Source: Forficula auricularia
Taxonomy: Eukaryota > Arthropoda > Insecta > Dermaptera > Forficulidae
Assembly (NCBI GenBank): GCA_024734495.1
Contig: JALMQS010000128.1
Span: 21,351,700-21,415,699, forward strand
DNA: 64,000 nt
Direction of reading: 5' to 3'
Both the position numbers and the translations under genes were made by a program. The notes beneath the pieces were generated by a model. It was given only the letters and a program-made list of their open reading frames with translations. It was not told the DNA's origin and searched no databases. Positions 12,991 to 61,151 of the stretch are shown piece by piece. Numbering within the stretch: the stretch's first letter is position 1; every line of letters starts with the position of its first letter.

Positions 12991-13002
12991 CCTTTCGCCC
13001 AT

Positions 13003-25220: not shown

Positions 25221-25258
25221 TTCTAGAATAGTTAGGGTTTTTAGCCCATCATCGGGAG
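25221..25258 (-). ncRNA. Degenerate hammerhead-like motif
   Basis: The minus strand reads CCGATGA, a linker base, GGG..loop..CCC and then a decayed GAAAC position. It resembles the motif at 25390-25428 but has lost core bases. It is listed only as a decayed member of the set. Confidence 0.2.
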
Positions 25259-25304
25259 TTTATGCAAAATTCTGTCTTTTATATATATACAAGATTTGCT
25301 CGTT

Positions 25305-25585
25305 TAATATAATAAGATTAATAAAATTTGCGTAAAATTGCGAGGTAGGTTTCACAAAAAAAGGAAATAAAACAAAAATGGGTTTAGAATTCGAAATATT
25401 TCGGGTATCAGCCCATCTTCAGGAGTCAGAGAAAAATGGATAAAATTGGAAAAAATTTTACAAATAATAATTTTTTGGAAATATGTATGGTGAGGGGAGA
25501 AAACGTACTGAGAATTAATATTTTCGACAGATGGAACAAGTGAGTTTTGTGAAACCTACCTCACATACGCAATTTTTATCTTAAT
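25305..25585. repeat. Foldback with GAAACCTACCTC arms
   Basis: The inverted edges GCGAGGTAGGTTTCACAAAA (about 25340) and TTTTGTGAAACCTACCTC (about 25543) are extended by GCGTAAAATTG / CATACGCAATTTTTATC. They enclose a hammerhead-like motif on the minus strand. A related half element is at 53450-53600 (AGGTAGGTTTCATAAAA followed by the same motif). Confidence 0.55.
25390..25428 (-). ncRNA. Hammerhead-like motif, weak
   Basis: The minus strand has CUGAAGA, a U linker, a 3-bp stem II (GGG/CCC) and GAAAU. The GUC cleavage triplet expected after it is replaced by UUC in AUAUUUCGAA. The close relative at 53520-53558 has the same form. It is probably a decayed member, or a subfamily with a different stem III. 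Confidence 0.3.
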
Positions 25586-26149
25586 ATAATATAAAAAGAG
25601 AAGGTGATGTTTCACCATTCATCTATTAACGCACAGCCTAAACCGCTTGACATAGAAATCTGGAGTGTATATTCTTTCACTTTCTCATTTTTCATTTATG
25701 GGTATGGTAAGAAGAGATTTTTTGAAATTCTAACCCTAAAGGAGGGAAAGGGTCCCAAAATGGGTTTTTTGAGTTTTTCAAAATATCTTAAACCAGAAAA
25801 TATGTCGATATGAATTTAATTTAGAAAGATGAAGCATTGAAATACAAAAAATCGTTTTTGAGTATTTTGCTCTATATGTCCCCGAAAGGGAGATATAGTC
25901 ATTTTCGGGTAAATTTTTGAAATATTTAAAGTGCTCTATCTCCTATTTTAAGTTATAGCATTCAAATTTGGTACATGGGTTTATTAATGCTAAATCTCGG
26001 GAAGATTTTTTTATTTTTTCGAAATTTGACCCCTGAACTGAAAAATGGGGGATTTTTGATTTTGTGGTCTAAAACACAAAAGTCTTCGTATTTTTCTTGC
26101 CCTTGGACCAAACTCAACCAAATTTTGTATACATAATCTGTGGGCCTCC

Positions 26150-26430
26150 AGGGAGCTAAAAATGCAAAAACTGGATGCGGGATTGGGTGCAGGGAGCCCG
26201 GGGTGGGTGTGGGGGTGGAATGGGTGGGAAGGGTGCGTAGTGAGGTAAAAGGCTGAGGTAGAATGGGATTATGGCGCGGGGGTGGGGCGCAGGGGGCCCG
26301 GGGACGGTGTGGAGGTGAAGTGGGAAGGAAGGGTGCGTAGTGGGGTGCAAGGTGGGTGCGGAGGTCGAATGGGGTTTGAGTGCGGGGATGGGGGTCCAGG
26401 CGGCGTAGCTTCCTGGCCAGTGGAGCCACC
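26150..26430. repeat. G-rich degenerate tandem sequence
   Basis: The plus strand carries many runs of three to five G (for example GGGGTGGGTGTGGGGGTGG). They are organised as two imperfect copies of a GGAAGGGTGCGTAGTGRGGT-containing unit. The strand bias and spacing allow G-quadruplex formation. It belongs to the same repeat as 39590-39700, where the complementary C-rich strand is shorter. The long minus-strand open frame here is proline-rich only because of the base composition. Confidence 0.7.
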
Positions 26431-26450
26431 CGCCGAAGGCGGGCTTCTCA
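26430..26450. repeat. GCCCGCC-TTCG-GGCGGGC hairpin
   Basis: A compact palindromic hairpin (CCCGCC, then a short CGAAGG turn, then GGCGGGC) sits at the edge of the G-rich repeat. The same hairpin (GGCCGCCTTCGGCGGACC) occurs at 39598-39615, where the CTGGACCCC phrase follows. Confidence 0.6.
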
Positions 26451-26594
26451 GCTAGTTATTATATAAAAATGTCTCACTTAGAACCAACACCTATCTCCTT
26501 AAAAGTTAAGGAGTTATAGATTTTTACCATTTGGAAATTGCTTCAGAATAAACACCGCTGTGAATAAACTAAATAACTTTCTTTTAAAGTTTTT

Positions 26595-26745
26595 GTGCCG
26601 AGAGTAGCAGAATTTTTATATATTGAAGGAGACAATAAATGAGTCTGTCTTCTGCTGGAATTATAATATCGTTATAAATAAATAAAATTTATAATTCCAG
26701 CAGAAGACACACTCTTTTGTTGTCTCCTTCAATAAATAACTTTCA
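26595..26745. repeat. Foldback of the GAGACAAT/TCTTCTGCTG block
   Basis: GAAGGAGACAATAAATGAGT and GTCTTCTGCTGGAATTATAA pair with TTATAATTCCAGCAGAAGAC and TTGTTGTCTCCTTCAA. GCCGAGAGTAGCAGAATTTT precedes the left arm. This is the clearest isolated copy of the block that flanks several ribozyme foldbacks. Confidence 0.65.
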
Positions 26746-27199
26746 TCAAATTTCTAATTTCACCATGGGTAGTAGGTAGGTACAACCAAAAGAAATACTT
26801 CTGTTATAATAATTTCTATTAACTACAAATAATATTAAAAATCTATAGAGAATATGAAAGAGATTTAAGTGTTTATTTTATTTTTCTCAAATTCTCGTGC
26901 TTGTCGTTTCCAACGAAAAATTAAAAAAACCTTTGATCTCTATATGTACAGGTGTACAACCTAAAAGCTAGCTACAAAATGTTTGGCTTAGCGCTCTTTG
27001 TCAAGTTGTTAGTAAATTCTCTCCGACCTTGTTTTCGAGTGAATTCTTACAAATCATCTGATTGTAAAGTACATGGTAGAAATTTTATTTTTATTTATTT
27101 TTTTAACAAAATGTTTATTTTTATATATCTAGTTTCGTATTTTGTGTATCTTTCGCTTTTTGTTGAATTTGCCTTTGTTTTTAAATACAATCTATATAA

Positions 27200-28950: not shown

Positions 28951-29799
28951 TTACATTGATAATATTCTATTTTTTACTTTTGTCTGTTTTAAAAGTAATT
29001 GCCTGATTTAAAGATGACTTTAAACCTTTTGACCTACGCGGGCCACATTTCAAGAAAAAAAAATTGTCTCGGAACGAGGATAAAATATTATAATTCTATT
29101 GATATTTGTTATTCAAAAAAGATAGTTAATAATGTAGAAATAAGAACTTTATTTTTTTAGCTCATAGTGAGCTTCTAATTACACTTTCGGAAATTGTATA
29201 CTTGAAAATCGCTTCTCTAAAATAGATCAAAATGATGATCATTTTTTCGGAAATCTTGAAATTTAGTTCAAGATTCAAAATTTAAAATTAGCACTTTTAT
29301 TTTTCGAAAACTTCACAGACGATTTTAGATTTTTTATTTTAGAGATAAAAAATTATCAGGCCAAATTGTTGTGTGTTTTCCAGTATCTACATATAAATCT
29401 CAATGTTTTAAGTACTTTTATGACTTTATATTGGGTCATGGGTTGGACAGTCCTGGTTTAAATCGAATGGGATTAATGAAGGATATGAGGAATGATAATT
29501 TATTTTTTAAAAGTAACGGATATAATAATCCCTGACCATCCATTATCTATTAACATGTAAGAACATGCAAAGATCTAAAAGAGAAGTCTTGAAAAGTTTT
29601 AGTCCAGGTGAGAAATTATTAATCTTAATTGTTATTGTTCTAGAAAAAGTCAATTCCTAGTCTCCTGGTACTAGAATAATATAACCATATGTACTTGGTT
29701 AGTGTCGTAGCATATAAATTACTGAAATAATAAATATTTTAGAAAATGAAAATTTGAGAAGAAGAATTTTAAAATATTGTTAGAGTTCGTGGCTGTGAT

Positions 29800-30085
29800 G
29801 ATACTGTACTAGATGAAGGAGGAGGTATCATTTTTGGCAAGGCTTGGTTCGATCACATATGTTTACCGCATTTTGTGTATAACTGTAAGTCTAAACAACC
29901 ATCTTCTTCAACTTATAATTTTTTATAAAAAATATATCAATTAACATCCATTTGTAAAAAAAAGTTTTAGCCTAATTGACTGAAGATGGCCAAATAAAAT
30001 TCAGGCCGAAACGTCTTATTAAAGGTGTTTTATTGAACCCAGTGATTCCATCTTTGGCTGATATCTCCTCCTTCATCTAGAACAG
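29800..30085. repeat. Foldback with a hammerhead-like motif
   Basis: The edges CTAGATGAAGGAGGAGGTATCA (about 29808) and TGATATCTCCTCCTTCATCTAG (about 30060) are inverted copies. Further in, TTTTTGGCAAGGCTTGGTTCG partly pairs with the right arm. A hammerhead-like motif lies at 29974-30022 in the right half. Confidence 0.6.
29974..30022 (+). ncRNA. Hammerhead-like motif
   Basis: CUGAAGA is at 29980-29986, followed by a U linker, stem II GGCC/GGCC around a 12-base loop, and GAAACGUC ending at 30015. Stem I (AAUUGA with UUAUU) is weak: two or three pairs including a wobble. A UUAUUAAA stretch follows the predicted cleavage site, as in the other members. The conserved core is intact, but helical support is limited to stem II. 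Confidence 0.4.
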
Positions 30086-30484
30086 AATTTTAAAATATTC
30101 GAAACTTCATTATTATTTTTTTATTTTATATAGTTGAGCTTATCATTTTGCTTTTAGTGAATTTTATTCTTGAAAAAAGGATTACGTATTTTACAAATGT
30201 AAATTCATATTTCGAAAAAGGGAATAAATATATCTCTACATATAAATCTCAATGTTTTAGGGAAGTTTATGATTTTATGTTGGGCCACACTCATTGCAGT
30301 GCTGGGCAGCCCTGCTTTAAATAAAAAAGAAAGTGGAAGATGAGGCAAGTATATGTTATGCTGCTGGAGTGTAAGTATTAATCTCGGAAATGGTACTACG
30401 GTTATATTGAATTGGATGTTTGTGCGTGGTATCAACGACAAGTAAGAGGAAATTCGATACCTAAGTATTTTCGAAAATAAAAGA

Positions 30485-33470: not shown

Positions 33471-33479
33471 TGCGGGCTT

Positions 33480-33965: not shown

Positions 33966-35314
33966 ATTTAAAAAATTAAGTGCTGATGCAAAAATGGCTT
34001 TCATGTAAGAATGACATTTTTTTTAATTTCAAGTTTTTTTTTTTTTAAATTAAAATAAATATTCCTGTTTAAATTATAATTTTTTAATCTTTTATTATCC
34101 TAGAAATTGAATGTAATAAATAAATTAAGTGAACATTTGTTTAATTGAAAAATATTTAATAAAACTTAAGTGGGCGGTTAATTGTGTCACTGAGTGTATA
34201 TAAGACTTGCTCGTTAAATAATATAAGATATTGTAAAGTAGTATCATGGAATATCAACAAAAGCTAGGGATATCAGGTAAGTGAAAATCATAGGGCATAT
34301 CGTTAAATGATTGTTTAGAAATTTAATATATCTCGTTTGAAGCATAGGTGCTATTATTTTACGTAACTTTTACATATACATGTATCACTTCTTTATATTC
34401 AATTACAGATGAAAAAGGATGCATTTGGTTGAAAAATATCCTTTCATTTCCAAATAAAAGGATCAAATTAATTGGAGTTGTTGTCACGTTGCAAAGTCGT
34501 GTGGCGCCGGATTTCCACGTGAACATTATATAATATGCCCATTATGATCATTAACAGATATGGATCGACTGGGTTAAATCAGTCAAGTTATTACTAATTT
34601 CATTTATTTGATTAAACTCAGCTTTTAATACAAATCTTTCAAAGCGTGCTAAACTCTGATAATTAAAAAAAGAACTCGTTCAATTGTCCTTTTTTGAAAT
34701 ACTTAACTTTTGTTGTTATTCAACTTTAACAATGATTCGAATTATTCAAGTTTAATTAATTTGAAGATCGAAAATGGCAAAATTACATAAAACAATAAAT
34801 TTGAAACTCCAGACTTTTTGAGAGGTTTCCAACTGAATTTGCCGAATTGGGAATTCAATTTAAATTTACGCATAAGTTCATCTAATGTTTTAATGAAATC
34901 ATTAAAAATGGATTTAATACAAAACATTTTCAATGTTCATTTATCTATTTTCAGCTTAAACTTAGTATTAATAAGATAAAAAAAAATTGCAACGGATAAT
35001 TGGTAGTATTTATCCAAAGTCATTTGAAATACTAGTATTAATATGTTTATTCCTTTATTATTAATCAGATATCACTGGCTATTTGTAGTCCATGTTGACT
35101 TAAAATCAAAAATAACGATCGATTCTTACCTACTACTAGAGGAATAACCTTATTATATTCCTTGAAAAGTTTTTGTTTTGCCGAGAGTAGCAGAGTTGTT
35201 GATTCACAAAGAGAAACAAAGAGGTTGTCCTCTGCTTGATGCAAATAAACATACACACATATATGTCGAAATGATATATCTGTATATACTCGTATATAGA
35301 TATTATTTATTTGT

Positions 35315-35357
35315 TTGAGACTATACTTTCGAAGACTTGGTCTTCATCATCAGTCTT
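35315..35357 (-). ncRNA. Hammerhead-like motif, left arm
   Basis: The minus strand has CUGAUGA, a U linker, a perfect 6-bp stem II (GAAGAC/GUCUUC) with loop CAA, then GAAAG, UAUA and GUC. The base after GAAA would be C in the consensus. Stem I is only GA/UC (2 bp). The inner GAAGAC/GUCUUC pair is kept in the other arm with a G-U change (GAAGGC/GUCUUC), which supports a paired RNA structure. Confidence 0.4.
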
Positions 35358-35427
35358 TTTTAATTATAAATTTTGTTTTTCACCGTATTGATATTGACTC
35401 CATGAAAAACAATATTTATAATTAAAA

Positions 35428-35470
35428 AAGACTGATAATGAAGGCCAAGTCTTCGAAACTATAGTCCCAA
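35428..35470 (+). ncRNA. Hammerhead-like motif, right arm
   Basis: The plus strand has CUGAUAA (core G8 changed to A), a U linker, stem II GAAGGC/GUCUUC with loop CAA, then GAAAC, UAUA and GUC. A minimal stem III (AC/GU with loop UAUA) can form. AAAUAAAUU follows. The core change would probably reduce or abolish activity. Confidence 0.35.
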
Positions 35471-35759
35471 ACAAATAAATTATATATATATACAGATATA
35501 TCATTTCGATATATATGTGTGTATGTTTATTTGCATCAAGCAGAGGACAACCTCTTTGTTTCTCTTTGTGTTATTATATTCCATTTTTGATGTTTTGACC
35601 ATGAACTCAACACTTCAAATGAATAAATTTTAAGGAATTAAAAAAAGTATCATCTTACTTAGAGTTTCTCTCCCGGGATTTCTCGTTCCCGATTTGCCGG
35701 GAAATTCGCATAAATATCTATTTCCGATTTCCCGAAAAAAATGTCATTTATCATCATAT

Positions 35760-38120: not shown

Positions 38121-38122
38121 TG

Positions 38123-42944: not shown

Positions 42945-44030
42945 ATGACTCGTGGAAAGGTTGTTGTTGAAAAAATTCGCTCAATTATTATCAATTTATT
43001 AAAAAAGGGAAAATCGAACGCGGAAATTGGCGATCTAGTTAATTTATCAAAGTTTACTGTCAGAAATATTATTCGAGTTTATAAAACAACGGGTACAATA
43101 GCTACAAAACCTCGGTATGCGTCGAAATCCAAAATATCAGATGCTGATAGACGGGCATTGAAAAAGATTATTAGAAAAAACAGGCGTTCGAACTATGGTG
43201 AATTATCTGTTCTTTGGAGCGATGCTGTGGGGCGAAGTGTTTCAAGATCCACGTGCCATAGAGAAGCCCTTAAGTTAGGTTTTAAAACTTACCAGGTAAT
43301 TTTATTGCAGCTTATTCCAAATTTTTTTTTTTTTTAATTTTAGTAATTTTTTTTAGGCGAAAGAAAAGCCACTCTTGACATTAAAACAAAAGAAAAACCG
43401 GCTTAAATGGGCTAAAAGTCACATTAATTGGACGAGTGATGAATGGAATAGTGTCCATTGGAGTGATGAGTCTCGTTTTGAAATTTGTGTTGGGGACAAT
43501 CGAAGCAGAGTTATTCGTCAGAAAAATGAAACTTTCAATTCAGATTGTTTAAAAAAGAAAGTAAAATTTCCTGCTTTAGTTATGGTATGGGGTTCAATGT
43601 CTGCTAGAGGTGTTGGAAAACTTCACTTCGTTGATGGAATTGTAAATACCAATAAATATTTAGAGATTTTAAAAAATCGTTACTTCCAACAATGGTAGAT
43701 GCATTGCAGAATAATAATAATTTTGTGTTCCAACAAGACGGGGTGGTCTGCCATACATCAAGAAAATCTTTAAAATGGCTTTCTGATCATAATGTTCCAC
43801 TTTTGGATTGGGTGGCAAACAGTCCCGACTTGTCACCAATAGAAACTTTTTGGCAAACAATGAAAAAGCTATTACGAATACAACCAGCTAGAAACGTAGT
43901 CGAATTTAAACACAAACTTCAAAATATTTGGGATACTTTCACACAAGATGAGTGTCAAAAGTTAATAAGTACGTTGCCCAAAAGAATTCAAGCCGTAATT
44001 AAAAATAAAGGCGACGTCACACAGTGGTAA
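42945..44030 (+). pseudogene. Tc1 transposase (DD34E), one intron, one frameshift
   Basis: It cuts and pastes the surrounding element. Exon 1 (42945-43295) starts at an ATG in AAAAATGACTCG. It encodes a helix-turn-helix (KSNAEIGDLVNLSKFTVRNI) and a second DNA-binding part ending FKTYQ. Exon 2 begins AKEKPLLTLKQ at 43357, giving the usual Tc1 wording across the junction. The catalytic residues are D in HWSDESRF (43465), D in FQQDG (43737) and E in SPIETFW (43842), with 34 residues between the last two. The C-terminus is ..NKGDVTQW and the total is about 340 residues, full length for Tc1. The frame shifts just before 43692 (the first frame ends in TAG at 43696), so this copy is inactive unless the shift is a sequencing error. 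Confidence 0.88.
43296..43356 (+). other. 61-nt spliceosomal intron in the Tc1 transposase
   Basis: The donor GTAATT follows codon CAG, and the acceptor TTTTTTTTTAG precedes GCG AAA GAA. Removing 61 bases joins TYQ to AKEKP in phase 0 and puts exon 1 in frame with exon 2. The intron is T-rich, and a second AG at 43342-43343 would give a different junction. Most Tc1 elements lack an intron here, but short introns occur in some. Confidence 0.75.
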
Positions 44031-44634
44031 AGATTTTGGATTTTGTAGGTTTTTCTTGTTTTTAACAATTAAAAAATAATTTTAAGTTAAATGTTACAAT
44101 AAAATGAATTAAATTGTTTAAAATGTTGTTCCAAATGATAATAAAAATAAATATTTAAATTAAATTTACCGTGAATTAGCATAATATTATTTAAAAAGAA
44201 AAAATATTGGTGGGCCAATTGAGATGGGACGGGCTCGTATATAGGTACAGAAGCAGGCACAAATGCGCTTTAGTAGTATAGGATTTTTATAAAATTGAAA
44301 TTTTTTCGTTTTTTTACATGATCAATTTTTGAGTTATACAAGATCGAAGAGGAGAATAACTAATACTGTTGTTATAAGATTATTATTAAGGCGACTCTAA
44401 CTGGTGGGCATAGGGAGTCATGAAAAATATTCAACTTTTTTTTTAATTTTTTTTTCGTTTCACGACTGGCTAAAAAAAGATAGAGAAAGTCATGTAGGTA
44501 TGTTTTTGACATAGTTAAGCAAGCCTTTGATTTAAGTAATTCAGCGCCGCGCCTGTAAAGGGAAAGATATGCATTCGAATTGAACGCCCTGCATTGCGGA
44601 TTGCGTTGACAGGCGCTGAATTTCTCACTAGTAC

Positions 44635-46033: not shown

Positions 46034-46997
46034 NNNNNNNNNNNNNNNNNNNNNNNNNNNNNNNNNNNNNNNNNNNNNNNNNNNNNNNNNNNNNNNNNNN
46101 NNNNNNNNNNNNNNNNNNNNNNNNNNNNNNNNNNNNNNNNNNNNNNNNNNNNNNNNNNNNNNNNNNNNNNNNNNNNNNNNNNNNNNNNNNNNNNNNNNNN
46201 NNNNNNNNNNNNNNNNNNNNNNNNNNNNNNNNNNNNNNNNNNNNNNNNNNNNNNNNNNNNNNNNNNNNNNNNNNNNNNNNNNNNNNNNNNNNNNNNNNNN
46301 NNNNNNNNNNNNNNNNNNNNNNNNNNNNNNNNNNNNNNNNNNNNNNNNNNNNNNNNNNNNNNNNNNNNNNNNNNNNNNNNNNNNNNNNNNNNNNNNNNNN
46401 NNNNNNNNNNNNNNNNNNNNNNNNNNNNNNNNNNNNNNNNNNNNNNNNNNNNNNNNNNNNNNNNNNNNNNNNNNNNNNNNNNNNNNNNNNNNNNNNNNNN
46501 NNNNNNNNNNNNNNNNNNNNNNNNNNNNNNNNNNNNNNNNNNNNNNNNNNNNNNNNNNNNNNNNNNNNNNNNNNNNNNNNNNNNNNNNNNNNNNNNNNNN
46601 NNNNNNNNNNNNNNNNNNNNNNNNNNNNNNNNNNNNNNNNNNNNNNNNNNNNNNNNNNNNNNNNNNNNNNNNNNNNNNNNNNNNNNNNNNNNNNNNNNNN
46701 NNNNNNNNNNNNNNNNNNNNNNNNNNNNNNNNNNNNNNNNNNNNNNNNNNNNNNNNNNNNNNNNNNNNNNNNNNNNNNNNNNNNNNNNNNNNNNNNNNNN
46801 NNNNNNNNNNNNNNNNNNNNNNNNNNNNNNNNNNNNNNNNNNNNNNNNNNNNNNNNNNNNNNNNNNNNNNNNNNNNNNNNNNNNNNNNNNNNNNNNNNNN
46901 NNNNNNNNNNNNNNNNNNNNNNNNNNNNNNNNNNNNNNNNNNNNNNNNNNNNNNNNNNNNNNNNNNNNNNNNNNNNNNNNNNNNNNNNNNNNNNNNN
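46034..46997. other. Assembly gap (964 N)
   Basis: Unknown bases. The open frames reported through it are artefacts of translating N. Confidence 0.99.
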
Positions 46998-47125: not shown

Positions 47126-47253
47126 TGATCTGAACAAAGAGACTGTCCTATTTGAAAATTATAATAAAAAACGGTAGATCATTCGTATCCATAATAAGCA
47201 TTAATTAACAGAATAGCAGGAATTAAAAATAAAAAACAGAGTTTTTATTAAAT

Positions 47254-47298
47254 GGGGCCAGACGTTTCGTCGATAATTTCGACTTTTTCAGTGGCCCC
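47254..47298 (-). ncRNA. Hammerhead-like ribozyme motif, left arm
   Basis: The minus strand has a perfect 7-bp stem I (GGGGCCA with UGGCCCC), the core CUGAAAA (G8 changed to A), an A linker, stem II GUCGA/UCGAC with loop AAUUA, then GAAAC directly followed by GUC. The topology is type I. Stem III is only the palindrome ACGU, which cannot fold on itself and would need a dimer. UUUAAUAAAAACUCUG follows cleavage. Confidence 0.5.
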
Positions 47299-47651
47299 TA
47301 TCACTCTTGTCAAAACCCACTACGCGATTTGTTTTTTAATCCTTTATTAAACTATAATACATTGTTGGACTAATTAAACAAGAACAACTTTTACACACTT
47401 GATAATCAGATGATCACAAAAAAATAATATAAGCTCTATTTTTTAAACAGACAAAGAAAGGATTTCTTTGTCTGTTTAAAGAGTAGAAACATATTATTTT
47501 TTTGTGATAAATTTTGATTGTCAAGTGTGTAAAAGTTCAAGATTCTTGAGCAATTGGGGCATGATCCAACAATGTATTATAGTTTGAATAAAAAGGATTA
47601 AAGGATGTTTCGTCGCGTAGTGGAATGTCTTTTGACAAAGAGTGATAGAAT

Positions 47652-47694
47652 GAGCCACTGAGGAAGTCGAAATTAATCACAAAACGTCTGGCCC
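47652..47694 (+). ncRNA. Hammerhead-like ribozyme motif, right arm
   Basis: The core CUGAGGA is intact. Then come an A linker, a degraded stem II (GUCGA with AUCAC) and AAAAC-GUC (GAAA changed to AAAA). Stem I is GAGCCA/UGGCCC with one mismatch. The two arms thus differ in which parts are damaged; together they give a full consensus. Confidence 0.4.
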
Positions 47695-47769
47695 ATTTAA
47701 TAAAAACTCTGTTTTTTATTTTTATCCAATTCCCTGCTATTCCTGTTAATTAATAATAAAAACATTTTA

Positions 47770-49894: not shown

Positions 49895-50402
49895 GCAATA
49901 TATCTTTACTTTACCATACAGGGCATGGTCAAGTATTGTAATCGTGCATGAAAAAGCGGTTTTTTTTCCTTCTTTTTTTCGAAATATCTCAAAAACGGCT
50001 GAAAGTATTGAGCAAAACCATGGCATTTTTTTCTAAAAAGCTCTAATAAGTGAACATTGAAAAAATTATATTTTTTGAGAAAATAATTGTTTTGTCAAAA
50101 TGTCTGTTAGTCTGTCTGTTAGTTAGTCTGTGCGTTACCAAATATTTGTGGACGAGCTAGCTCAAAAACTAGTGTGAATAACGAAACCAAATTTCACACT
50201 TAGTTTTGGTCCATAGAGATTAAGAGCTGATTAGATTTTGGTGCATATCGAGGGGGTGGAGGGGGGTTAAAAATTAAAAATCTGGCCTATTTGAGCAAAC
50301 TCAACCAAATTTTGTAAACATAACTAGTGGGACCCCAGAAGTCTAAACATGCAAAAACTAACCCCCCCCTTTCCCTACATGAATATAAATAATTTTATTA
50401 AA

Positions 50403-50690
50403 ATTGGATGTTGATGAAGGCAGTCCACAGTGGTTGTAAAAAAAAACAAGACTATAATGGTTTTAGCTATCTTACGTTTATTCGTTAAACCGATGTTGAT
50501 TTGAATCCATTACTGACTTTTCGTTACCCTGAAGAAGGAGAGAATAAATCTCCGAAACTTCGGTTTAACGAATAAATGTAAGATAATAAATCCATTATAG
50601 TCTCATTTTTTTTACAACCACTGTGGACTGCCTTCATCAACATCGAATTTAATATTTATACCAGTCCGTCTCCTAAAGAAAAACGCTATC
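50403..50690. mobile_element. Ribozyme foldback with 12-bp target duplication
   Basis: AATTTTATTAAA is present at 50391-50402 and at 50691-50702. The related repeat at 23877-23890 has it once (as its complement), so this is a true insertion of 288 bp. The arms (about 50406-50493 and 50559-50646) are inverted: TGTTGATGAAGGCAGTCCAC and its partner at the outside, ATTCGTTAAACCGA inside. The right end continues past the arm into CAGTCCGTCTCCTAAAG, a phrase also found at the end of the 55525-55950 foldback. A variable-length, long duplication fits a retrotransposition-type insertion, not a cut-and-paste MITE. Confidence 0.8.
50520..50572 (+). ncRNA. Hammerhead-like ribozyme motif
   Basis: Stem I is UUCGUUACC with GGU-UU-AACGAA (9 bp with a two-base bulge). 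The core CUGAAGA is perfect. Then come an A linker, a perfect 5-bp stem II (GGAGA/UCUCC) with a seven-base loop, then GAAAC followed by UUC in place of GUC. The U and C at the last two positions fit the hammerhead U16-H17 rule. AACGAAUAAAUGUAAG follows. Confidence 0.5.
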
Positions 50691-51303
50691 AATTTTATTA
50701 AATATTAAATATAAGTGTGGGGCCAGGTTGTTTGGTAAAGTCAAGTGATGGCCACATCAGAACACGTCAGCTTATTTTATTTGGTGGTGCCACCTATTAA
50801 TCCATTTTTAATTTTAATAAATAGTTTTCACCTTGAACCTAAAACATTTTCCCTAAGTAAAATTGGTTCTTTCTTAAAAAATTCAATTTTATAATATATC
50901 CATATGAAATATGATCTCAAAGTATTTAATACCTATTACCTATTGATTTTAATAAAATAATTTTTTTATTATAATCTTATCCTATAATAATAATAAATAT
51001 ATAATATTATATAAAACAATTTATTTTTATCCCACTATAAAATAAAATAACAAACTAATTTGAAAAATATAAAATTCGGTTAATTAAAAATTGCATTTTG
51101 TCCAATAATGCACAAATGATCAGGCACATTTCTTAGTTAAATTCTTGTTTATTAGGAAAAAATAACTTAAAATAATATAATAAGTATCTTCAATCAATAG
51201 TTAGTAAAAAAAGGTATCTACTTTTAATTAACAAAAAAATAAATATTCAAATAACTTTTAAGTTTGTTTTTTATTAAAATTAAGTAATTTCAATACGTAT
51301 ACC

Positions 51304-51723: not shown

Positions 51724-51743
51724 ATTAAATGACATGTAATTAC

Positions 51744-52150: not shown

Positions 52151-53445
52151 GATTAATACAAAAGAATAACATGAGTATTGAGAAATTACACAGAATGGGA
52201 TTCAATAAACAAAACAAATAGCGCATATATGATAATGTATATATGACTATAGGAAGCTTAGATACTACGAGATAGATATAACTTAGATATAACGCATGTT
52301 TTAACTATGACAAACATCAATTTTTCAAGACTTAAATAAAAATTAAAAATAGTTCTGATTGCTGATTTGTGCTGCTCGCTAAATGAAACCATTTTATTAT
52401 AAATCATATTTTATAAAATAGTTATTCTTTATAATGACAATGTAAAATTTTTCTCAAAATAGTTTAATAATTATTTTTTTCCATTAATTTGCATAATATG
52501 TTGAAAAAAATACTTATAGTATAAAGTACACTATATACTGAAGTTTTATTGTTTGTGTTTACAATTATGAAACAGCAAATATAGCTGTATATTAATCTCA
52601 TCATAATTATTGACCAGTGGGTTCGGCCATAAATGCAGAAACTAGATTATTAATAATAATAATAATAAAAATAATGTTTAATTATGCTTAAATTATCTGT
52701 TTACAATTATAAATTTTTAATTAAATGACCTAAATATATACACAATTAGCACAAAAATATACTTAGCGTCTCTAAGACGCCGCGCGACCTTCATCGAAAC
52801 AAAATGCCATCATGCTATTTTTTTTTTTTTTTTTTGCATGTTGTAAAAATACACTTTGGGTGGTCTGTTTCCACGTCCCACCACTCAAATGGTCTGAGGT
52901 GAATATATTATGTTTATAATTGACTATAAATTATAATTTTAATTAATTTTTTTAATTAAAGTCCCAAATTGTAGTATTCATTTAAGTTGAATTTTAGCAC
53001 GAGAAGGTTTTGCCGAAAATTCCAGAGGCCAAAAGTGCGCAAATAACAAGCTTGTGCTCCGATTTTACTGTAAAATGTAAATTTTTTGGTCATTTTCACA
53101 AATGCTGACAAAATTGATTATATAAATCCTTTAACATATATCCAGTTAAAATTTCAAATAAATACTATATATCTTTTTAAAAAAAAGTGTTCATAAAATG
53201 TATATCGAAAATTCTTAAAATTTTTCTACTCAAATATGATGAATTATTTATTGTAATTTCAAATTAACAATAAAATTAGTTTTGGTCAGCCAAATTGGCC
53301 AAATACCCCACTGTGTATTGAAAATAAACTAGAAACTTTTAAGCAATTTCCTAATTTCATCATAGGTAATCAATTTTGTAAATGTGGGTTCTTGCTGAAA
53401 CATTTTAAATAAAGTAAAGAAAATTTTGAAAAATTTTTGAAACTT
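52151..53445. other. AT-rich stretch, no supported gene
   Basis: A fragment of family B (AATTGTAGTATTCATTTAAG, then TTGAATTTTAGCACGAG) lies at 52970-53050. Otherwise it is low-complexity. Confidence 0.45.
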
Positions 53446-53519
53446 TTTAAAATTTAAAATATAAGGTACTAGGTAGGTTTCATAAAAATAAAAGATAAGA
53501 TGCTTGTTTAGCACGACTT

Positions 53520-53558
53520 TATATATATTTCGGGGTATGAGGCTATCTTCAGGAGTTC
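53520..53558 (-). ncRNA. Hammerhead-like motif, weak
   Basis: The minus strand has ACUCCUGAAGAU, a weak stem II (imperfect AGCC..CCCC) and GAAAUAUAUA. It is the relative of 25390-25428. The AAAGUCGUGC that follows could supply a distant GUC, but this is speculative. Confidence 0.25.
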
Positions 53559-53868
53559 ACAGAGGAAACTTCTTTTAGTATTAGTAATTTAAATTTTCCA
53601 AAGTTACAAAAAATTTTCAAAATTTTCTTTACTTTATAGGTAATCGAACTGGAAAGAATTATTCAGTTCATCAACTTTGCAATCAAAACCCCAATAAGTA
53701 GATTCTCAATATATTTTTCTGATTAAAAAGCGACTGCCCTATACTTTATTGAATCAATTTGAACCGCGAAAGTTAAATAATATGATCAATAATTTCTTAT
53801 GTTAATTCTATATTAAGAAAATTATTTTATTATTTTTTGATTTTTTGAAAAGGAAAAATAAATTGAGC

Positions 53869-53937
53869 ATCCGACGGGACTCGAACCGGTGTCTCTCTCC
53901 TTTACGCGAAGGGCGGCTTACCAACTAGCCCACGGAT
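53869..53937 (-). ncRNA. tRNA-like sequence, probably a SINE head or pseudo-tRNA
   Basis: The minus strand has GGGCTAGTTGGTAAGCC (A-box and D-arm like) and CACCGGTTCGAGTCCCGT (B box, T-arm with one mismatch). Acceptor pairing is limited to ATCCG/CGGAT. The anticodon arm CCTT-CGCGTA-AAGG has a six-base loop, so a normal anticodon cannot be read. The CTTCGCG.AAAG segment matches the tRNA-like repeat at 10536-10648. A functional tRNA is unlikely. Confidence 0.45.
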
Positions 53938-54977
53938 ACGTCAGATAAGCTCTTTAGATTGAATGTCATTTTTCCTTTATTGAATGTTTTTTTTTTTTTT
54001 TTTTGTTAAATTTATCTTTCGATGGAAATTTTTTATTTAAATATTGTGTAATCCTCAAAGAGTTCAACAGATCTCAGAGCAAAGATAAATCTATCTATTT
54101 ATCTATTTTTCCGAATCGTTCAACGATCAATCTTTTAAGACCCAGGTCTAGGCCTCCATTCTCTTCTTTCCATTCCCTGAGTGTTTTTGTCTTTTCAGAA
54201 ATGCTCGGACTTATCAACATGACTTATAGCTGCTAAAACTTCCATGTGTAAACCCTTCAACTATACTTATAATTAAAAAATATATGACAAAACAAATAAA
54301 ACCATTTAGTGTTTTCAGAAAATTATTCAACAAATAACAAGCATATTGCATAATGTAGGTGATCAAATCGGAATTTATGTATTCCAGTGCATTTTCCTAT
54401 AAATATTATGTAACTTTTAAAAAGCCGGATATTAAATATATATTCCTATTATCTTTTATATAACTTTTTGTTATTATTTTTTATTCATACTCTCCTTTAA
54501 ATTTTTTTCCTTAAAAATCATAAACAAATTTCAAAATTATTATAACTATAAATACGTATAGTAATATGGCTCTTGAAAATGATTCATTTCGTAAATATAA
54601 TTGATAATAATACTAAACTTAGTAAATGAATAAATTCTTTAAATAAATTTTTTCCACAGTCTAAATACAAAAATAATACATTTCTATTTTTATATTATAT
54701 AAATATTCGTTTTAAATAAATAAAAGTCCCTGGAAGATAGATAACCTAATAGGCTTACTGACGTAGCGTGTAAGAGAAATCAGGGGCAGAACTCAAAAGA
54801 AATTTCCGACAGATGGCAGAACAAGTCAAATGAGGGATTAAATATTATTTTCAAATTATAATTATGTATGTTTAGAATATATAAATAAGGAAACTTAGAA
54901 ATTATTTTACCTACAAAAACTTGGCACATATTTCAGAGAAAAAAAAATAACTGACTGAATTTTTTATTTATTTATAA

Positions 54978-55022
54978 CTACACTTTAGTTTCGAGGGTTT
55001 TGCCCTTTTCATTAGTCTATTA
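54978..55022 (-). ncRNA. Hammerhead-like motif, left arm
   Basis: The minus strand has CUAAUGA (core G5 changed to A), an A linker, stem II AGGGC/ACCCU-like with loop AAA, then GAAAC, UAAA and GUG in place of GUC. It is the damaged partner of the motif at 55043-55090. Confidence 0.3.
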
Positions 55023-55042
55023 CAATTGATTCAGAGGAATGC

Positions 55043-55090
55043 AATAGACTGATGAAGAGGGCAAAGCCCTCGAAACTAAAGTCTAGTTAT
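55043..55090 (+). ncRNA. Hammerhead-like motif, right arm
   Basis: The core CUGAUGA is at 55049-55055. Then come an A linker, a perfect 6-bp stem II (GAGGGC/GCCCUC) with loop AAA, then GAAAC, UAAA and GUC (55081-55083). A minimal two-pair stem III (AC/GU, loop UAAA) forms as in minimal hammerheads. Stem I is poor next to the core; an alternative outer helix UAGACU/AGUCUA is perfect but would use core bases. UUAUAAAUAAAUU follows. Confidence 0.45.
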
Positions 55091-55614
55091 AAATAAATTT
55101 ATTTTTCCAGCAGAAGACACACTCTTTTATTGTCTCCTTTAATTTATAAAAATTATGCTACTCTCGGCAAAGAGAAACTTTAAATTTAAAAATAGCAAAA
55201 TTTAACAAAAGGAAAAAACCGGGTCTTGGTTATAAATATATACAGAGACGGATCTATGTAAGGGCTAATATTGATTGAGCCCAGGCCCCCAAGGTATTAA
55301 AGGGGCCCCTATAGTAAATAAAATGAATTTTAAAGATAAATGTTTGTAGAATTCTTTTATGATGCAATATATTATTATATTATATGTTTGTAAATTATTT
55401 TATGATGCAATATATTATTACTCAATATATGTTTGTAAATTATTTTTATGATGCAATATATTATTATATTATATGTTTGAAAATTATTTTATGATGCAAT
55501 ATATTATTATATTATAAGATTGAGTTATTTTGGAGACGGACTGATAAGTGAATTAAGTGGATATCGATGAGGCAGTCGAAAAGAGAAGATAGTTACATAT
55601 ACTTTTATTCCATA

Positions 55615-55658
55615 AAACCGACGTTTCGGAGGCTATTCCCTCCTTCGCTTCAGGGTTT
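55615..55658 (-). ncRNA. Hammerhead-like ribozyme motif, left arm
   Basis: The minus strand has a perfect 5-bp stem I (AAACC/GGUUU) and a core of CUGAAG-CG-A with two extra bases compared with CUGAAGA. Then come an A linker, a perfect 5-bp stem II (GGAGG/CCUCC) with loop GAAUAG, and GAAACGUC. UUUAUGGAAUAAAAG follows. Except for the two-base insertion it matches the 50520-50572 motif. Confidence 0.45.
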
Positions 55659-55835
55659 GAAAAGTCAGTGAAGGAAATCCAATGCGACATTCCCCTCTGT
55701 CTCCTCTTTCAGTGGCAGTAACAATAATATAATGTATATACGTAGTAATTACTACATTATAATTGTGCTGAGATGATATACATTATATTATTGTTACTGC
55801 CACTGGAAAGGGTCAGAGCGGAATGTCGCATTGGA

Positions 55836-55880
55836 TGACTCAATGAAGAAGGAGGAGCCTCAATTCGGTTTTATGAATAA
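55836..55880 (+). ncRNA. Degenerate hammerhead motif, right arm
   Basis: AUGAAGAAGGAGG, AG, CCUC and AAUUCGGUUUUAUGAAUAAA are recognisable as the decayed partner of the left-arm motif: the loop and the GAAACG segment are largely lost. Confidence 0.25.
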
Positions 55881-56227
55881 AAAGATAATATATTATCTTC
55901 TTCTTTTTTTGGACTGCCTCATCGATATCCACTTAATTATATTATACATATGTTTGTAAATTATTTTATGATGCAATATAAATAGCCCTTCATTAATCTA
56001 AGATTAAAGCATTAAAGATTATGCATCCAAAAATATTAGAGAATTAATTAAAGCTGTAAAACTATGTAAGGTATGAGCACCAGTAGTTGTCCATAGTAGC
56101 TGGGCATTTGCAAGAAAAGTGCAAAAATTAAGAACCCTAATGCTTATCCAGCTTTGAAAAATAGTTGTAGTGGTAAAATACGCTTTTAAGTGGCCAACTT
56201 CTGGTGCTTCTATTTTAATGTATATAT

Positions 56228-57745: not shown

Positions 57746-58083
57746 TTCTTTTTGTACGTATTTATGTCCTGAATAAGAAAATGTTTCGATTTTACGATTT
57801 CACCCTTTACTAATACACCAAACTCTATCAAAATACCAAGTCGATATCAATTAAGCCTATAAATTTCGCCTCTTCTCTACAAGTTTGCCAAATTTCAGCA
57901 TTCTAGGATCAGCGGAAGTACTCTAGAATTTTGATGAGCCAATCGAAGCCTATCTTTGGCTTCTTCTAACTTAGATTGTATAATAAATAGAAATATTAAA
58001 TGTTGTATCATTTGCATCCATAGTAAATTTGTAACAGGAATAGCAGGGAAATGGACAACATTAAAAACAAAGAGTTTTTATAA

Positions 58084-58131
58084 ATGGGCCAGACGTTTCG
58101 TCAATTTATTTTGACTTCCACAGTGGCCCAT
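58084..58131 (-). ncRNA. Hammerhead-like ribozyme motif, left arm
   Basis: The minus strand has a perfect 8-bp stem I (AUGGGCCA with UGGCCCAU) and the core CUGUGGA (A6 changed to U). Then come an A linker, a perfect 5-bp stem II (GUCAA/UUGAC), then GAAACGUC. Compared with the motif at 47254-47298, stem I has GGGC in place of GGGGC and stem II has GUCAA/UUGAC in place of GUCGA/UCGAC, a compensatory change (A-U for G-C at the helix end). Confidence 0.5.
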
Positions 58132-58312
58132 TTTATTACTCTTTGTCAAGAAACAATTTCACTATAAGACAAAGCATCATTAATATTTTTTTAACATATT
58201 CTTGGGTCAAATTAATCAACAATCTTGAACTTTTCTTTAACAATTAAAAAAAAAATGTTAAAGAAAAATCCAAGATTGTTTATTGATTTGAGTCAAGAAT
58301 GTGTTAAAAAAA

Positions 58313-58490
58313 AATTGGGGTCAGATAGGTTAGGGGTTAGCGCAACAGTCTGCTAACCAAGTGGACCCGAGTTCGAATCCGACTCGAGGCATCCGGCTAA
58401 AATCTGACCCCGGGGGTACAGACAAATTTGAAAAAATAAATAGTATCGTAAATTGGCTTATGACTAGAAAGGCCAAAAAGCCAAAAAAAA
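58313..58490 (+). mobile_element. tRNA-derived SINE with 11-bp target duplication
   Basis: The insert is bounded by TGTTAAAAAAA at 58302-58312 and 58491-58501. It starts TTGGGGTCAGATAGG, has an A-box-like GGTTAGCGCAACAG and a B box GAGTTCGAATCC (about 58372), a short non-tRNA body, and an A-rich end (AAAAAGCCAAAAAAAA). GGGGTCAGAT and ATCTGACCCC near the head form an inverted pair. The order tRNA-like head, body, A-rich tail and duplication is that of a SINE. It is younger than its host palindrome. Confidence 0.75.
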
Positions 58491-58549
58491 TGTTAAAAAA
58501 AGATTAATGATGTTTTGTCTTTTAGTGAAATTGTTTTTTAACAAAGAGT

Positions 58550-58600
58550 CACTGAGCAACTGAGGAAGTCAAAATAAATTGACGAAATGTCTGTGTCATT
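58550..58600 (+). ncRNA. Hammerhead-like ribozyme motif, right arm
   Basis: The core CUGAGGA is at 58560-58566. Then come an A linker, a perfect 5-bp stem II (GUCAA/UUGAC), then GAAAU-GUC. Stem I is damaged (GAGCAA against UGUGUC), in contrast to the left arm, where stem I is perfect. UUUAAUAAAAACUCUG follows, as in the other copies. Confidence 0.4.
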
Positions 58601-58857
58601 TAATAAAAACTCTGTGTTTTTAATTTTGTCCAATTCCCTGTTATACCTGTTATAAAAATATTAAATTTGTTACTTTAATGCTTATACGATTAAATCCTAC
58701 TAAACTGTCTTATATATGATCGTTAAGTCTGCGTGTAGTCTGCAAGGGCTCTAACTTGGTATATACAATAGAAATATGAAATTTCATAATTTAGTTAATC
58801 TTATGAACTAGTATTATGTCTCAAAAAACTTAGACTCCCCCCTAGAAACAAATAAAT

Positions 58858-59240
58858 AATATAAGTAATATATATATATATGTTGCAGTGAAAACCCGTT
58901 TTTTAGTAAAAACTGGTTCTTACTAATTAAAACGCGTTTCATGTGATACTTTTATTGGGGCAACTAGAATTTACTGATGCTGGTTGAGTTTGGTCCAAAG
59001 ATCTAGCATATTCATTTTTGACATTATTTTCAAAATGTCAAAAATTAAATAATTACATAATTTTTGACATTTTCGTTTAAAAAATGAGGCGGAAGGTCAA
59101 AAATTAAGATTCTAGACCTTTGAACCAAACTCAACCAACATCAGTAAATTCAAGTTGCCACAAAGGAATTCAGTGAAACGCGTTTTAACTAATAAGAACC
59201 CGTTCGTACTAAAAACGGGTTTTTACCTCAACATATATAC
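58858..59240. repeat. Foldback family E, copy 1
   Basis: The edges TGTTGCAGTGAAAACCCG and CGGGTTTTTACCTCAACA are followed by TTTTTAGTA hairpins, AAAACGCGTTTCA, TAGAATTTACTGATG and GGTTGAGTTTGGTCCAAAG, all present in inverse order in the other arm. The centre is AT-rich. A second copy is at 62836-63256. No open frame is present. Confidence 0.8.
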
Positions 59241-59269
59241 ATATATATAATTATATATATTTGATATAT

Positions 59270-59360
59270 ATGTGTGTATGTTTATTTGCATCAAGCAGAG
59301 AACAACTCTTTGTTTCTCTTTATGAATCTACAACTCTGCCACTTTCGGCAAAATAAAAAA
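59270..59360. repeat. Lone CTCTGCTTGA / GCCGAAAGTGGCAG block
   Basis: Inverse of the block before the ribozyme foldback at 35160-35255: TGTATGTTTATTTGCATCAA, CAGAGAACAACTCTTTGTTT, then CTGCCACTTTCGGCAAAAT. No ribozyme core is attached here. Confidence 0.6.
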
Positions 59361-59639
59361 TTTTCAATTATATGCAATCATTTTGGCACTAGTATGAACT
59401 TTCTACGGGCTTCCTTGAGTTCTCATGTGTATCGAAATCCAAACATAGAGGCAGAAAAAAATGTGCTGGCTGCAAAATGATTTTACTTTTACTTTCTAAA
59501 CACGACTAAGCAAAGAAAAAATTAAATTTTTAAGTGAATATAATGAGATAAGGCCTGTCGTGTGTATCAAAAGTATATTATTTTTTTCATTCTAAGTTGA
59601 TGTGATTAGAAATAGTGTCTAATGAAAAGCAGTATATAG

Positions 59640-59863
59640 TAATATACGAGTAATTGAGATTGTTATTGAGTTCCACATCTGCCAACGTGTAAAGCTGACC
59701 CGGGTGGGGGGTGGTGGGGGCCGGGCGAGGGGGGAGGGGAGTGCCGATTGCAGGAAAGCCTCCGTGCTTGGAGTTGAGCTGTCAGTAACCGTGAAGTTTA
59801 AATGAGAGTTCATAAGAAAAGAGCTTGGCTTTACGACCACTGCAACTTTCCAATACAACCGCG
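59640..59863 (+). promoter_or_regulatory. G-rich promoter/5' UTR of the MFSD11-like gene
   Basis: A sharp GC rise in AT-rich surroundings includes CCCGGGTGGGGGGTGGTGGG and GGGCGAGGGGGGAGGGG (59699-59740). It has G-runs able to form a quadruplex on the coding strand about 125-165 bases before the ATG. It leads directly into the start codon. Position and composition suggest promoter plus 5' UTR; I see no clear TATA box or initiator. Confidence 0.5.
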
Positions 59864-59956
59864 ATGGAGTTCGATCGACGGCTTCTCAATGTCATCATGC
59901 TGGGTGTCGGCTTTTTGCTTGTCTTCACTGCATTCCAAACCCTAGGAAATATAGAG
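59864..59956 (+). CDS. UNC93-like protein MFSD11, first coding exon (partial gene)
   Basis: The 31-codon exon starts MEFDRRLLNVIMLGVGFLLV, continues FTAFQTLGNIE, and is followed by a good splice donor (GAG|GTTAGT) in phase 0. The MLGVGFLLVFTAFQTLGN stretch is the first transmembrane segment of UNC93-like major-facilitator proteins. FTAFQT.GN is particularly characteristic of MFSD11, an orphan transporter-like membrane protein found in most animals. The start is chosen because the family begins only about ten residues before this helix. The remaining helices are not found in the 4 kb that follow, so intron 1 extends beyond the window. It is the only host gene I can support here. Confidence 0.75.
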
Positions 59957-60189
59957 GTTAGTACTTTATCGTAAGATTATTTCATCTATAGAATGATTGT
60001 AAAAATAAATATTAAGTTTCTTTCACTCTAATAATTTATGGACTGATATAATAGATAATTTTAATTAGAAATTAAAGATAAAATAAAAATTCTGGTAAAT
60101 TTAAATTAAGCGCTATTGATCTGGCAGACGACTTAAATCCCGCTATATATGAATATTAGTTGCGAGGACCGCTGAAGGCCTCTTGGCTT

Positions 60190-60735
60190 TTAAGGTAGTT
60201 GTTTCACAAATGCAAAAATTCAAGAAGTCTTTGAAACTTGGAATAAAAGTCATTAAAATCATAATACACATACTGTTAAAATTTGAAGACGATTTACCAC
60301 ACCAAACATGAATTAATTCCAATTAAAAATGACTTATTTACATAGTGTAGATAGGGAAAGTGTGGCGAAATGATCATTATTTTATTTTTTTTCATTGAAG
60401 GACTTTCACCATCTTGATGAAAAACTAATATTTGTTAGAATAATATATTCGGAGTAAGTGAAAAAAAAATTGAAATTATTTATCTTTTAGTTTTGATAAA
60501 AAAAAAAAAAAAAAAAAAACATATTTGGGAGATTATTTTTAGTGGAGGGAATATAAGTACAATGGCTTAGAAACGATCCGGCAAGTATGTGTGTATCCAT
60601 ATAGAGATTTCGTAGTGTGAGAGGACAGTCACGTTAAAAAAACATAACCTAAAATTTTAGTTCCGTTCATATTTATTATTTACGAGGCTAAAACTTTTTG
60701 TGTGGATTGTCGCGAAAGAACCTCCTTAGGGCCAG
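60190..60735. repeat. Dispersed family D, copy 2
   Basis: This is the inverse of 30485-31050 (AACTTTTTGTGTGGATTGTC, TGCCGGA-type ATCCGGCAAGTATGTGTG, GGACTTTCACCATCTTGATG, CTGTTAAAATTTGAAGACG). It lies inside intron 1 of the MFSD11-like gene and carries a poly-A run of about 21 at 60499-60520. Confidence 0.75.
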
Positions 60736-60866
60736 TTGTATGTCGGTTGGTAAACTTTTTTTAACCGTTGGCAAAGGGTAAAAGGCTGGGATGGCCAATC
60801 AGATGAAAGTGCCTGCCAATCAGATGACAGTTAAAAAGAGTTTACCAACCGACATACAACCGGCCC
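60729..60866. mobile_element. 138-bp MITE with TTA duplication
   Basis: The terminal inverted repeats GGGCCAGTTGTATGTCGGTT and AACCGACATACAACCGGCCC have TTA on both sides (60726-60728, 60867-60869). A direct repeat GCCAATCAGATGA lies inside. TTA duplication and size fit a PIF/Harbinger-type MITE. It lies in intron 1 of the MFSD11-like gene. Confidence 0.8.
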
Positions 60867-61102
60867 TTAGACTTATATATTCGCTATATAACCACTATTG
60901 CCACCTAGTCCCTAAGTAAGTAAGCTTTCCAATACAAACATAGACAATTTTTATTGATTAATTAGTCATAAAAATAGATAAATAAAGGAAATATTAAAGT
61001 TAGGTATTTATTTATTTACATTTTTAAATTAAAGGATTTCTTAGTCACATAAAATAAATAAATACAATAAATTTTATCAATTATTATTATTTATTTGATT
61101 AA

Positions 61103-61151
61103 TTTACCAGACAGTTTCGGTCACCTTTGGGTGACCATCTTCAGTAGTAAA
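61103..61151 (-). ncRNA. Hammerhead-like ribozyme motif, best preserved
   Basis: On the minus strand stem I is a full 7 bp (UUUACUA with UGGUAAA, one G-U). The core CUGAAGA is intact. Then come a U linker, a perfect 7-bp stem II (GGUCACC/GGUGACC) with loop CAAA, GAAAC, a single U, and GUC; predicted cleavage is between 61110 and 61109. Stem III can be only one pair with a three-base loop (CUG), the minimal form. The one extra base between A9 and stem II is unlike textbook hammerheads but is shared by all members here. It lies antisense in intron 1 of the MFSD11-like gene. UUAAUCAAAUAAAUAA follows. Confidence 0.6.

Follow-up and report, generated by a model that had tools for sequence, protein, structure and literature searches.

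The question raised by a 64,000-nt stretch of the Forficula auricularia genome (C33:21351700-21415699, hereafter the window; the genome comprises 1.06 Gb in 845 contigs) is what kind of element carries its many hammerhead ribozyme-like motifs and why these motifs face one another in small foldbacks. The original prediction listed 15 such sites, named here by their window positions, and took them for small non-autonomous relatives of retrozymes and of Penelope-like elements (PLEs). Our analysis indicates that the motifs are very probably minimal type I hammerheads lying in the pseudo-long terminal repeats (pLTRs) of PLEs, and that the foldbacks are remnants of inverted PLE insertions. The assignment to PLE pLTRs is direct for one family, F4, is supported by one further locus encoding a GIY-YIG domain, and is inferred for the other families.

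The coding partner of the motif was found outside the window. GIY-YIG loci are numerous in the genome (150 were scored of 3,423 candidates) and three of them stand in a regular 2.9-kb series. The locus cut from this series, L051, contains a complete open reading frame (ORF) of 858 codons from stop to stop, or 827 amino acids from the first Met, with both a reverse transcriptase domain (RVT_1, E=1.6e-16) and a GIY-YIG domain (E=8e-6). The end of a second ORF is also present at a period of 2,909 bp, indicating head-to-tail tandem copies with pLTRs. Between the ORFs lies a complete 35-nt F4 hammerhead preceded by the palindrome TCAATATCCATATGATATTGA, and this inter-ORF sequence is 90-92% identical (blastn) to the arms of the window element at 35162-35570. 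Among the matches listed, an exact F4 hammerhead was present on the same strand 386-396 bp downstream of all six GIY-YIG hits in the stretch that these matches cover (five in C4 and one in C5); as all six belong to the score group of L051, this is evidence for F4 only. An F4 motif was also present in L052, near another GIY-YIG hit. A different GIY-YIG locus, L053, has its own hammerhead-like motif, with a GUU triplet, approximately 600 nt past the end of the open frame. Homologues of the L051 protein were plentiful (215 at E<=0.001 among 7,991 candidates scored), the named sources including beetles, butterflies and a bdelloid rotifer, with Diabrotica, Euphydryas and Adineta among them. No PLE relative was found in viral_contigs and only one doubtful 27-residue match in genome_contigs, and the element at 50520 gave no match to phage sequences. 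F4 thus combines reverse transcriptase and GIY-YIG domains in one ORF with tandem pLTRs and, as described below, a one-sided tail and target-site duplications.

The motif itself was examined by several searches. Its strict form (CTGANGA..GAAAC(0-4)GTC) occurs 68,674 times in the genome, 34,216 and 34,458 times on the two strands, a count that includes some overlapping double matches of single sites; the reversed control pattern occurs 152 times (69 + 83). In the window the strict form was found three times (29980+, 55049+ and 61110-) where 0.02 would be expected, and none of 100 shuffles reached three. A relaxed scan with stem scoring returned eight window sites scoring at least 10, all within the 15 (mean 0.3 over 20 shuffles), and six scoring at least 12, a score not attained in shuffles. 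At E<=0.025, a covariance model trained on 15 copies, all from outside the window, recovered 11 of the listed 15; the site 47652 was borderline (E=0.19), 53520 was weak (E=3.8), and 25390 and 55836 gave no match up to E=5. Since most rows of the model share families with the window copies, this search tests membership of those families and is not evidence of an independent kind. The motifs are genuine, though intact ones are less numerous than stated, the exact pattern being present at three of the 15 only. The claim of a constant core was too strong. Eight sites (25390, 29974, 35315, 50520, 53520, 55043, 58550 and 61103) retain both the CTGANGA and the GAAA box undamaged, and the other seven carry core substitutions or indels, so that many window copies are fossils.

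Pairing in the stems was conserved while their sequences changed. In 17 hand-chosen sequences the first four pairs of stem II and the first two of stem I were compared, and all 102 cells held standard pairs, where random re-pairing gave a mean of 59 and a maximum of 77 in 10,000 trials, although this perfect count is favoured by the choice of sequences by hand. The third stem I pair was already mixed. The 17 sequences are not all independent, those of F1, F2, F3 and 50520 being alike, as are those of 61103 and L007, of 47254 and 58084, and of F4 and L049. Five (L043, L053, 50520, 58084 and 47254) depart from the strict pattern under the parse used and were picked with their stems in view; the chance-like L049:4480, the degenerate family of L010:2409 and 25390, and forms seen only in lists of matches were omitted. 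When 15 copies lying outside the window, most of them members of the same families, were aligned with MAFFT, 96.7% of stem II cells were paired (67.4% in the best slid register) and 19 cells had changed on both sides. The covariation was 0.883 against 0.251, and none of 500 shuffles reached four of the five measures used. The expectation that stems I and II are maintained by paired changes is supported; stem II paired in each of the 17 sequences compared, and has been lost at 53520.

The single extra base that had been described after A9 proved constant. In the canonical hammerhead stem II is stacked directly on A9 with no linker. Of 61 strict matches at the loci examined, 55 have a stem II of at least three contiguous pairs, six being without such a stem under this parse, and all 55 stems begin after exactly one unpaired base (A in 29, T in 26). 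The closing pair is G-C in 53 and G-U in two. Patterns with no linker are rare, with 255 genome matches, some of which look like deletions and some of which belong to a repeated type CTGATGAGCC...GGCGAAACTAGTC. A minority no-linker hammerhead type, CTGATGAGCCAAACTTTGGCGAAACTAGTC, with a self-complementary stem III was also noted, for example at C33:1411450-1411479. At a stem II position of F4 the A-U form has 6,038 genome copies and the A-C mismatch form 45. Stem III was perfectly self-complementary, either ACGU or ACUAUAGU, in 50 of the 61 matches, as expected of hammerheads acting as dimers (PMC6466107). Judged by sequence, then, the core boxes, the NUH triplet and the compensatory stems are those predicted for a minimal type I hammerhead, and the linker before stem II is a departure from the canonical form. 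Separately, 47 of the 61 matches are followed by AATAAA within 60 nt, against a background of 15%, though copies of the same family are not independent; it might be a poly(A) signal placed directly behind the ribozyme.

Why, then, are the motifs paired head to head? All 18 divergent pairs that were aligned have inverted arms, of 59-278 nt and 86-98% identity, with spacers of 1-838 nt. Among the 99 genome places in the matches listed, neighbouring motifs were arranged (-,+) in 21 of 22 cases within 500 bp and 24 of 27 within 1,500 bp, and in only nine of 68 beyond 1,500 bp; no direct-repeat neighbours were seen within 500 bp. The outer ends of the F4 arms fell at two sites. Of 32 pLTR matches reaching position 190, 14 end at 209-219 and 16 at 256-265, the others ending at 245 and at 195, where the match is cut by the locus border. 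Every one of the nine complete F4 pairs (L008, L010, L013, L032, L038, L041, L043, L050 and that in the window) combines one arm ending at pLTR 212-219 with another ending at 256-265, the longer arm bearing the PLE 'tail'. Incomplete or interrupted pairs (L001, L033, L034 and L044) and solo fragments stand outside this count, and overlapping loci (L002, L009, L014, L016, L027 and L028) were omitted from the list of end points. Outer sequence on one side only was also seen in other families, whose flanks were read by eye and not counted. The L050 spacer, which separates two inverted pLTRs, codes for the final 57 residues of the PLE (94.7% identity). This foldback, at least, is therefore a PLE copy truncated at its 5' end, with an inverted pLTR as its cap. 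For both L013 and L043 the inner junction falls inside the palindrome at the pLTR start, and L041 contains a second F4 pair, both arms of which start at pLTR 127, in a TA-rich stretch.

The ends of the elements are commonly flanked by target-site duplications. Direct repeats of 9-13 bp were present near the ends of six of eight F4 elements and at six of 400 random places. In the window, duplications of 10-16 bp flank six copies, five found by search and one (55615) by eye. Random windows of equal size contained repeats at least as long as those at 29974, 50520, 58084 and 47254 in 1-4% of cases, the search windows having been set after several of the repeats had been noticed by eye. Inverted arms and target duplications are also what MITE-like (miniature inverted-repeat transposable element) foldback DNA transposons would show, with the hairpin motif lying in their inverted repeats by accident, and Tc1/mariner-like remnants do occur in the window. 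However, symmetric termini are lacking, one F4 arm being approximately 45 nt longer than the other in all nine complete pairs; the arms, moreover, consist of PLE pLTRs, and PLE coding sequence is present in one spacer. For F4 this already contradicts a MITE origin, which we reject and to which almost no weight can be given.

The positions of the arm ends bear also on the proposal that the foldbacks form a class of their own, small, non-autonomous and retrozyme-like, spreading through circular RNAs excised by their hammerheads. The small size of the foldbacks, their hammerheads and the published coexistence of retrozymes with PLEs (PMC7229834) would suit it. Retrozymes, however, consist of units repeated directly in tandem, and their type I hammerheads are canonical (PMC7229834), whereas 21 of 22 close neighbours here are inverted, and the outer F4 ends are confined to two fixed positions, both downstream of the ribozyme. 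The element at 50520 had suggested that arms start at the hammerhead cleavage site, and this was rejected: only one of 35 F4 inner ends lay within 3 nt of it, about the chance number (inner ends being the starts of local alignments, with F5 matches excluded and one copy split by the L044/L045 border). As the inner ends are not gathered at the cut site, it appears that cleaved RNA does not usually serve as the template, which agrees with the in vitro insertion of hammerhead mutants of an Anolis PLE (PMC11167929). Thus the inverted layout, the fixed F4 ends and the lack of a pile-up at the cleavage site lead us to reject the retrozyme-like class as very unlikely. In the best-studied pairs the arms are instead PLE pLTRs placed head to head, only one of them carrying the tail; target-site duplications are present, and one spacer contains a truncated ORF.

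Several observations nevertheless weigh against a PLE origin, or against its extension to every copy. A tblastn search of the window with one PLE protein as the query gave no PLE ORF. The families of 29974, of 47254 and 58084, of 50520 and 55615, of 61103, and of 25390 and 53520 were assigned by architecture, with no ORF-bearing partner shown, and L053 was assigned from its GIY-YIG domain and not from a reverse transcriptase. An exact divergent partner within 1.5 kb was present for only 48 of the 99 listed motifs (24 pairs), the others being solo or having a decayed partner. Neither L013 nor L027, two of the eight F4 elements tested, has a target-site duplication; nor has the pair 54978/55043, whose left arm is cut short and whose 7-bp repeat is matched in 78% of controls. 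The motif at 61103 has no clear pair and no clear target duplication. The Rfam hammerhead models, which had been suggested as a check, gave no match at curated cut-offs, nor up to E=10. Of the covariation measures the fifth, the number of pairs changed on both sides, was 3 against 2.4 and was reached by 230 of 500 shuffles. Finally, hammerhead mutants of the Anolis PLE still inserted in vitro and its ribozyme did not cut without added protein (PMC11167929).

The tandem layout, the two end points, the combination of one short with one long arm, the duplications in most elements and the truncation were all observed in F4, and a route to the foldbacks may be proposed. Head-to-tail tandem PLEs would give one transcript carrying two hammerheads, whose short self-complementary stem III would pair in a dimer, leading presumably to cutting at the pLTR. 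Insertion would be by target-primed reverse transcription starting approximately 100-155 nt downstream of the ribozyme, at either of two alternative sites about 45 nt apart; the F4 end points suggest the sites, and the priming is conjectural. One copy from each site may then be joined head to head, with starts from opposite target strands meeting and self-complementary sequence joining the copies. Frequent severe 5' truncation would reduce the product to a small foldback lying between the two copies of the target duplication. Given that sense and antisense hammerheads face one another in the foldbacks, such copies are probably not functional elements but by-products.

Two further readings are put forward tentatively and, taken together, at somewhat less than an even chance: a two-start rule for each insertion, using the tail site and a site about 45 nt upstream on opposite strands with joining through the palindrome at the pLTR start or the like, and a hammerhead subclass with an unpaired A or U between A9 and a stem II closed by G-C. 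If true, the two-start rule would give the palindrome and the tail a function. Its main rival, which concerns the joining step only and is weighed beside and not against PLE identity, is that the inverted arm arises by self-priming on one molecule instead of from two target-primed starts. Self-priming has been suggested for the PLEs of bdelloids because palindromes occur where the inverted copies join (PMC3846280), and the L013 and L043 junctions inside the pLTR-start palindrome would suit it. A fold-back copy of one strand should, however, either have a tail on each arm or be randomly shortened, whereas the nine complete F4 pairs combine two fixed ends, and in Anolis the PLE enzyme, which has two start sites, extends both strands of the target (PMC11167929). 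We regard self-priming as a substantial, though minority, possibility.

PLE insertion and the role of the hammerhead are unsettled in the papers cited here. With approximately 68,700 motif matches, tandem PLEs that look intact and numerous inverted copies bearing target duplications, this genome offers insertion junctions in large numbers for study. Those analysed so far, a small part, favour two fixed end points and argue against cleaved RNA being the template as a rule. There is also a warning for annotation, as foldbacks of this kind can be PLE remnants and not MITEs.

The window copies are collected in Table 1. In the F6 insertion only about 26 nt of the outer arms still match well; beyond its left arm lies a sequence that is found again beyond the left arm of L041, a locus with arms of 123 nt and 98% identity. 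The right arm of the F5 pair continues into an F4-related tail up to pLTR position 261 (55098-55190, 72% identity by blastn). The repeats of the F2 pair were read by eye, as the automatic search chose a 23-bp host tandem repeat instead.

Table 1. Pairs, arms, flanking repeats and hammerhead motifs in the window; E values are from the covariance model.
Feature	Position	Strand	Evidence and details
Complete PLE insertion, F4 inverted pLTR pair	35162..35570		blastn to L051 pLTR, 90-92% identity
Arms of the F4 element	35382-35162; 35389-35570		pLTR 50-256 with tail; pLTR 36-213 without tail
Left target-site duplication, F4 element	35150..35161		TTATTATATTCC, 12 bp, zero offset at both element ends
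Right target-site duplication, F4 element	35571..35582		TTATTATATTCC
Hammerhead motif, left arm of F4 element	35319..35353	-	E=1e-5; relaxed scan
Hammerhead motif, right arm of F4 element, mutated core CTGATAA	35432..35466	+	E=3e-5; relaxed scan
Family F6 insertion	29779..30083		16-bp direct repeats AGAATTTTAAAATATT at 29763-29778, 30084-30099
Hammerhead motif, strict match	29980..30015	+	E=2.1e-6; relaxed scan
Head-to-head inverted pair	47171..47752		10-bp repeats ATAATAAAAA at 47161-47170, 47753-47762
Arms of this pair	47200-47458; 47464-47754		79% identity
Hammerhead motif, mutated core CTGAAAA	47261..47291	-	E=0.025
Decayed partner motif, right arm	47650..47696	+	E=0.19
Inverted pair	50403..50690		12-bp repeats AATTTTATTAAA at 50391-50402, 50691-50702; CCAGTCCGTCTCC tail, right arm only
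Hammerhead motif, cleavage triplet UUC	50529..50561	+	Best model match, E=6.4e-7
Family F5 inverted pLTR pair, short left arm	54966..55190		Arms 54966-55024, 55040-55098
Hammerhead motif, strict match	55049..55083	+	E=4.9e-6
F5 partner motif, mutated core CTAATGA	54977..55023	-	E=0.0028
Family F2 inverted pair, tail on left arm only	55517..55935		11-bp repeats ATTATATTATA at 55506-55516, 55936-55946
Hammerhead motif, 2-base core insertion	55612..55661	-	E=2.2e-5
Head-to-head inverted pair, spacer with other repeats	58002..58655		11-bp repeats AAATATTAAAT at 57991-58001, 58656-58666
Hammerhead motif, mutated core CTGTGGA, long stem I	58092..58123	-	E=0.016; relaxed scan
Hammerhead motif, right arm	58560..58591	+	E=0.00045
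Solo hammerhead motif, 7-bp stem II and 8-bp stem I	61103..61152	-	Top relaxed-scan score; E=0.00054
Weak inverted element, degenerate motif 25390(-)	25299..25600		Arms 78% identity; missed by model
Weak inverted element, decayed motif 53520(-)	53409..53637		Arms 88% identity; E=3.8
F4 pLTR fragment 120-262 with tail, without hammerhead	59233..59373	+	blastn, 87.5% identity

Other features were noted in passing. The GC content is 26-33% in 14 of the 16 4-kb bins of the window, and a run of 964 N lies at 46034-46997. A tRNA-like sequence with a box-B-like GTTCGAATCC (58317-58400), seen by eye in the spacer of the 58002-58655 pair, is perhaps a tRNA-derived short interspersed nuclear element (SINE), and a tRNA-Thr (CGT) predicted on the minus strand at 53865-53939 may be a gene or a SINE. 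Inverted-repeat elements at 58955-59163 and 62850-63240 carry mirrored CTGATGT..GGTTGAGTTTGGTC, a likeness to the hammerhead core due to chance or descent. The Tc1/mariner-like remnant at 42661-44233 has 134-nt inverted arms that are 94% complementary and two ORFs; a helix-turn-helix domain was recognized in the first, and DDE_3, below cut-off, in the second. A second transposase remnant at 12463-13223 has DDE_3 below cut-off and inverted arms of 111 nt, 95% complementary.

The closest published systems are PLEs. Adineta vaga Pen2a and other endonuclease-positive PLEs have, like the F4 elements, pLTRs and reverse transcriptase with GIY-YIG in one ORF, there of 842 amino acids. Bdelloid PLEs also have a head-to-head inverted pLTR that is 37 bp shorter (the difference between end points here is about 45 nt), an optional 31-bp tail on one inverted pLTR, resembling the one-sided tail here, and palindromes at the pLTR start or junction (all PMC3846280). 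Their target duplications are 8-10 bp in several copies, against 10-16 bp in the window, and their copies are few, against tens of thousands of motif matches here (PMC3846280). The word 'hammerhead' is absent from the main text of that paper. Because head-to-head inverted pLTRs are already published for PLEs, the inverted-pair layout, correctly noticed in the original prediction, is not unusual and is no sign of a new element class.

Poseidon of Anolis carolinensis likewise has tandem copies with a hammerhead at the pLTR/ORF junction, and its two reverse transcription start sites match and define the tail, as the two F4 ends would here; its ORF starts at stem II, whereas the first ATG of L051 is about 200 nt downstream of the motif (PMC11167929). 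Metazoan non-LTR retrozymes share type I hammerheads in small repeats, but theirs are canonical, with contacts between loops, and the repeats are tandem and direct, where inverted pairs and minimal hammerheads are found here (PMC7229834). The minimal PLE hammerheads of Cervera and de la Pena 2014 and Lunse et al. 2017, as related in PMC7761336, PMC6155905 and PMC6466107, are of type I with a near-absent, palindromic stem III, occur as thousands of dispersed copies, some of them in PLE pLTRs, and would act as dimers. The present motifs resemble them in layout, location, stem III and dispersal and would likewise act as dimers, supporting the relationship originally suggested. The A/U linker, a departure from the canonical form, may already be part of the published consensus. 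Thus the inverted layout and the minimal hammerheads are known from PLEs, and what is striking in F. auricularia is the copy number and the uniform A/U linker, together with the large set of junctions.

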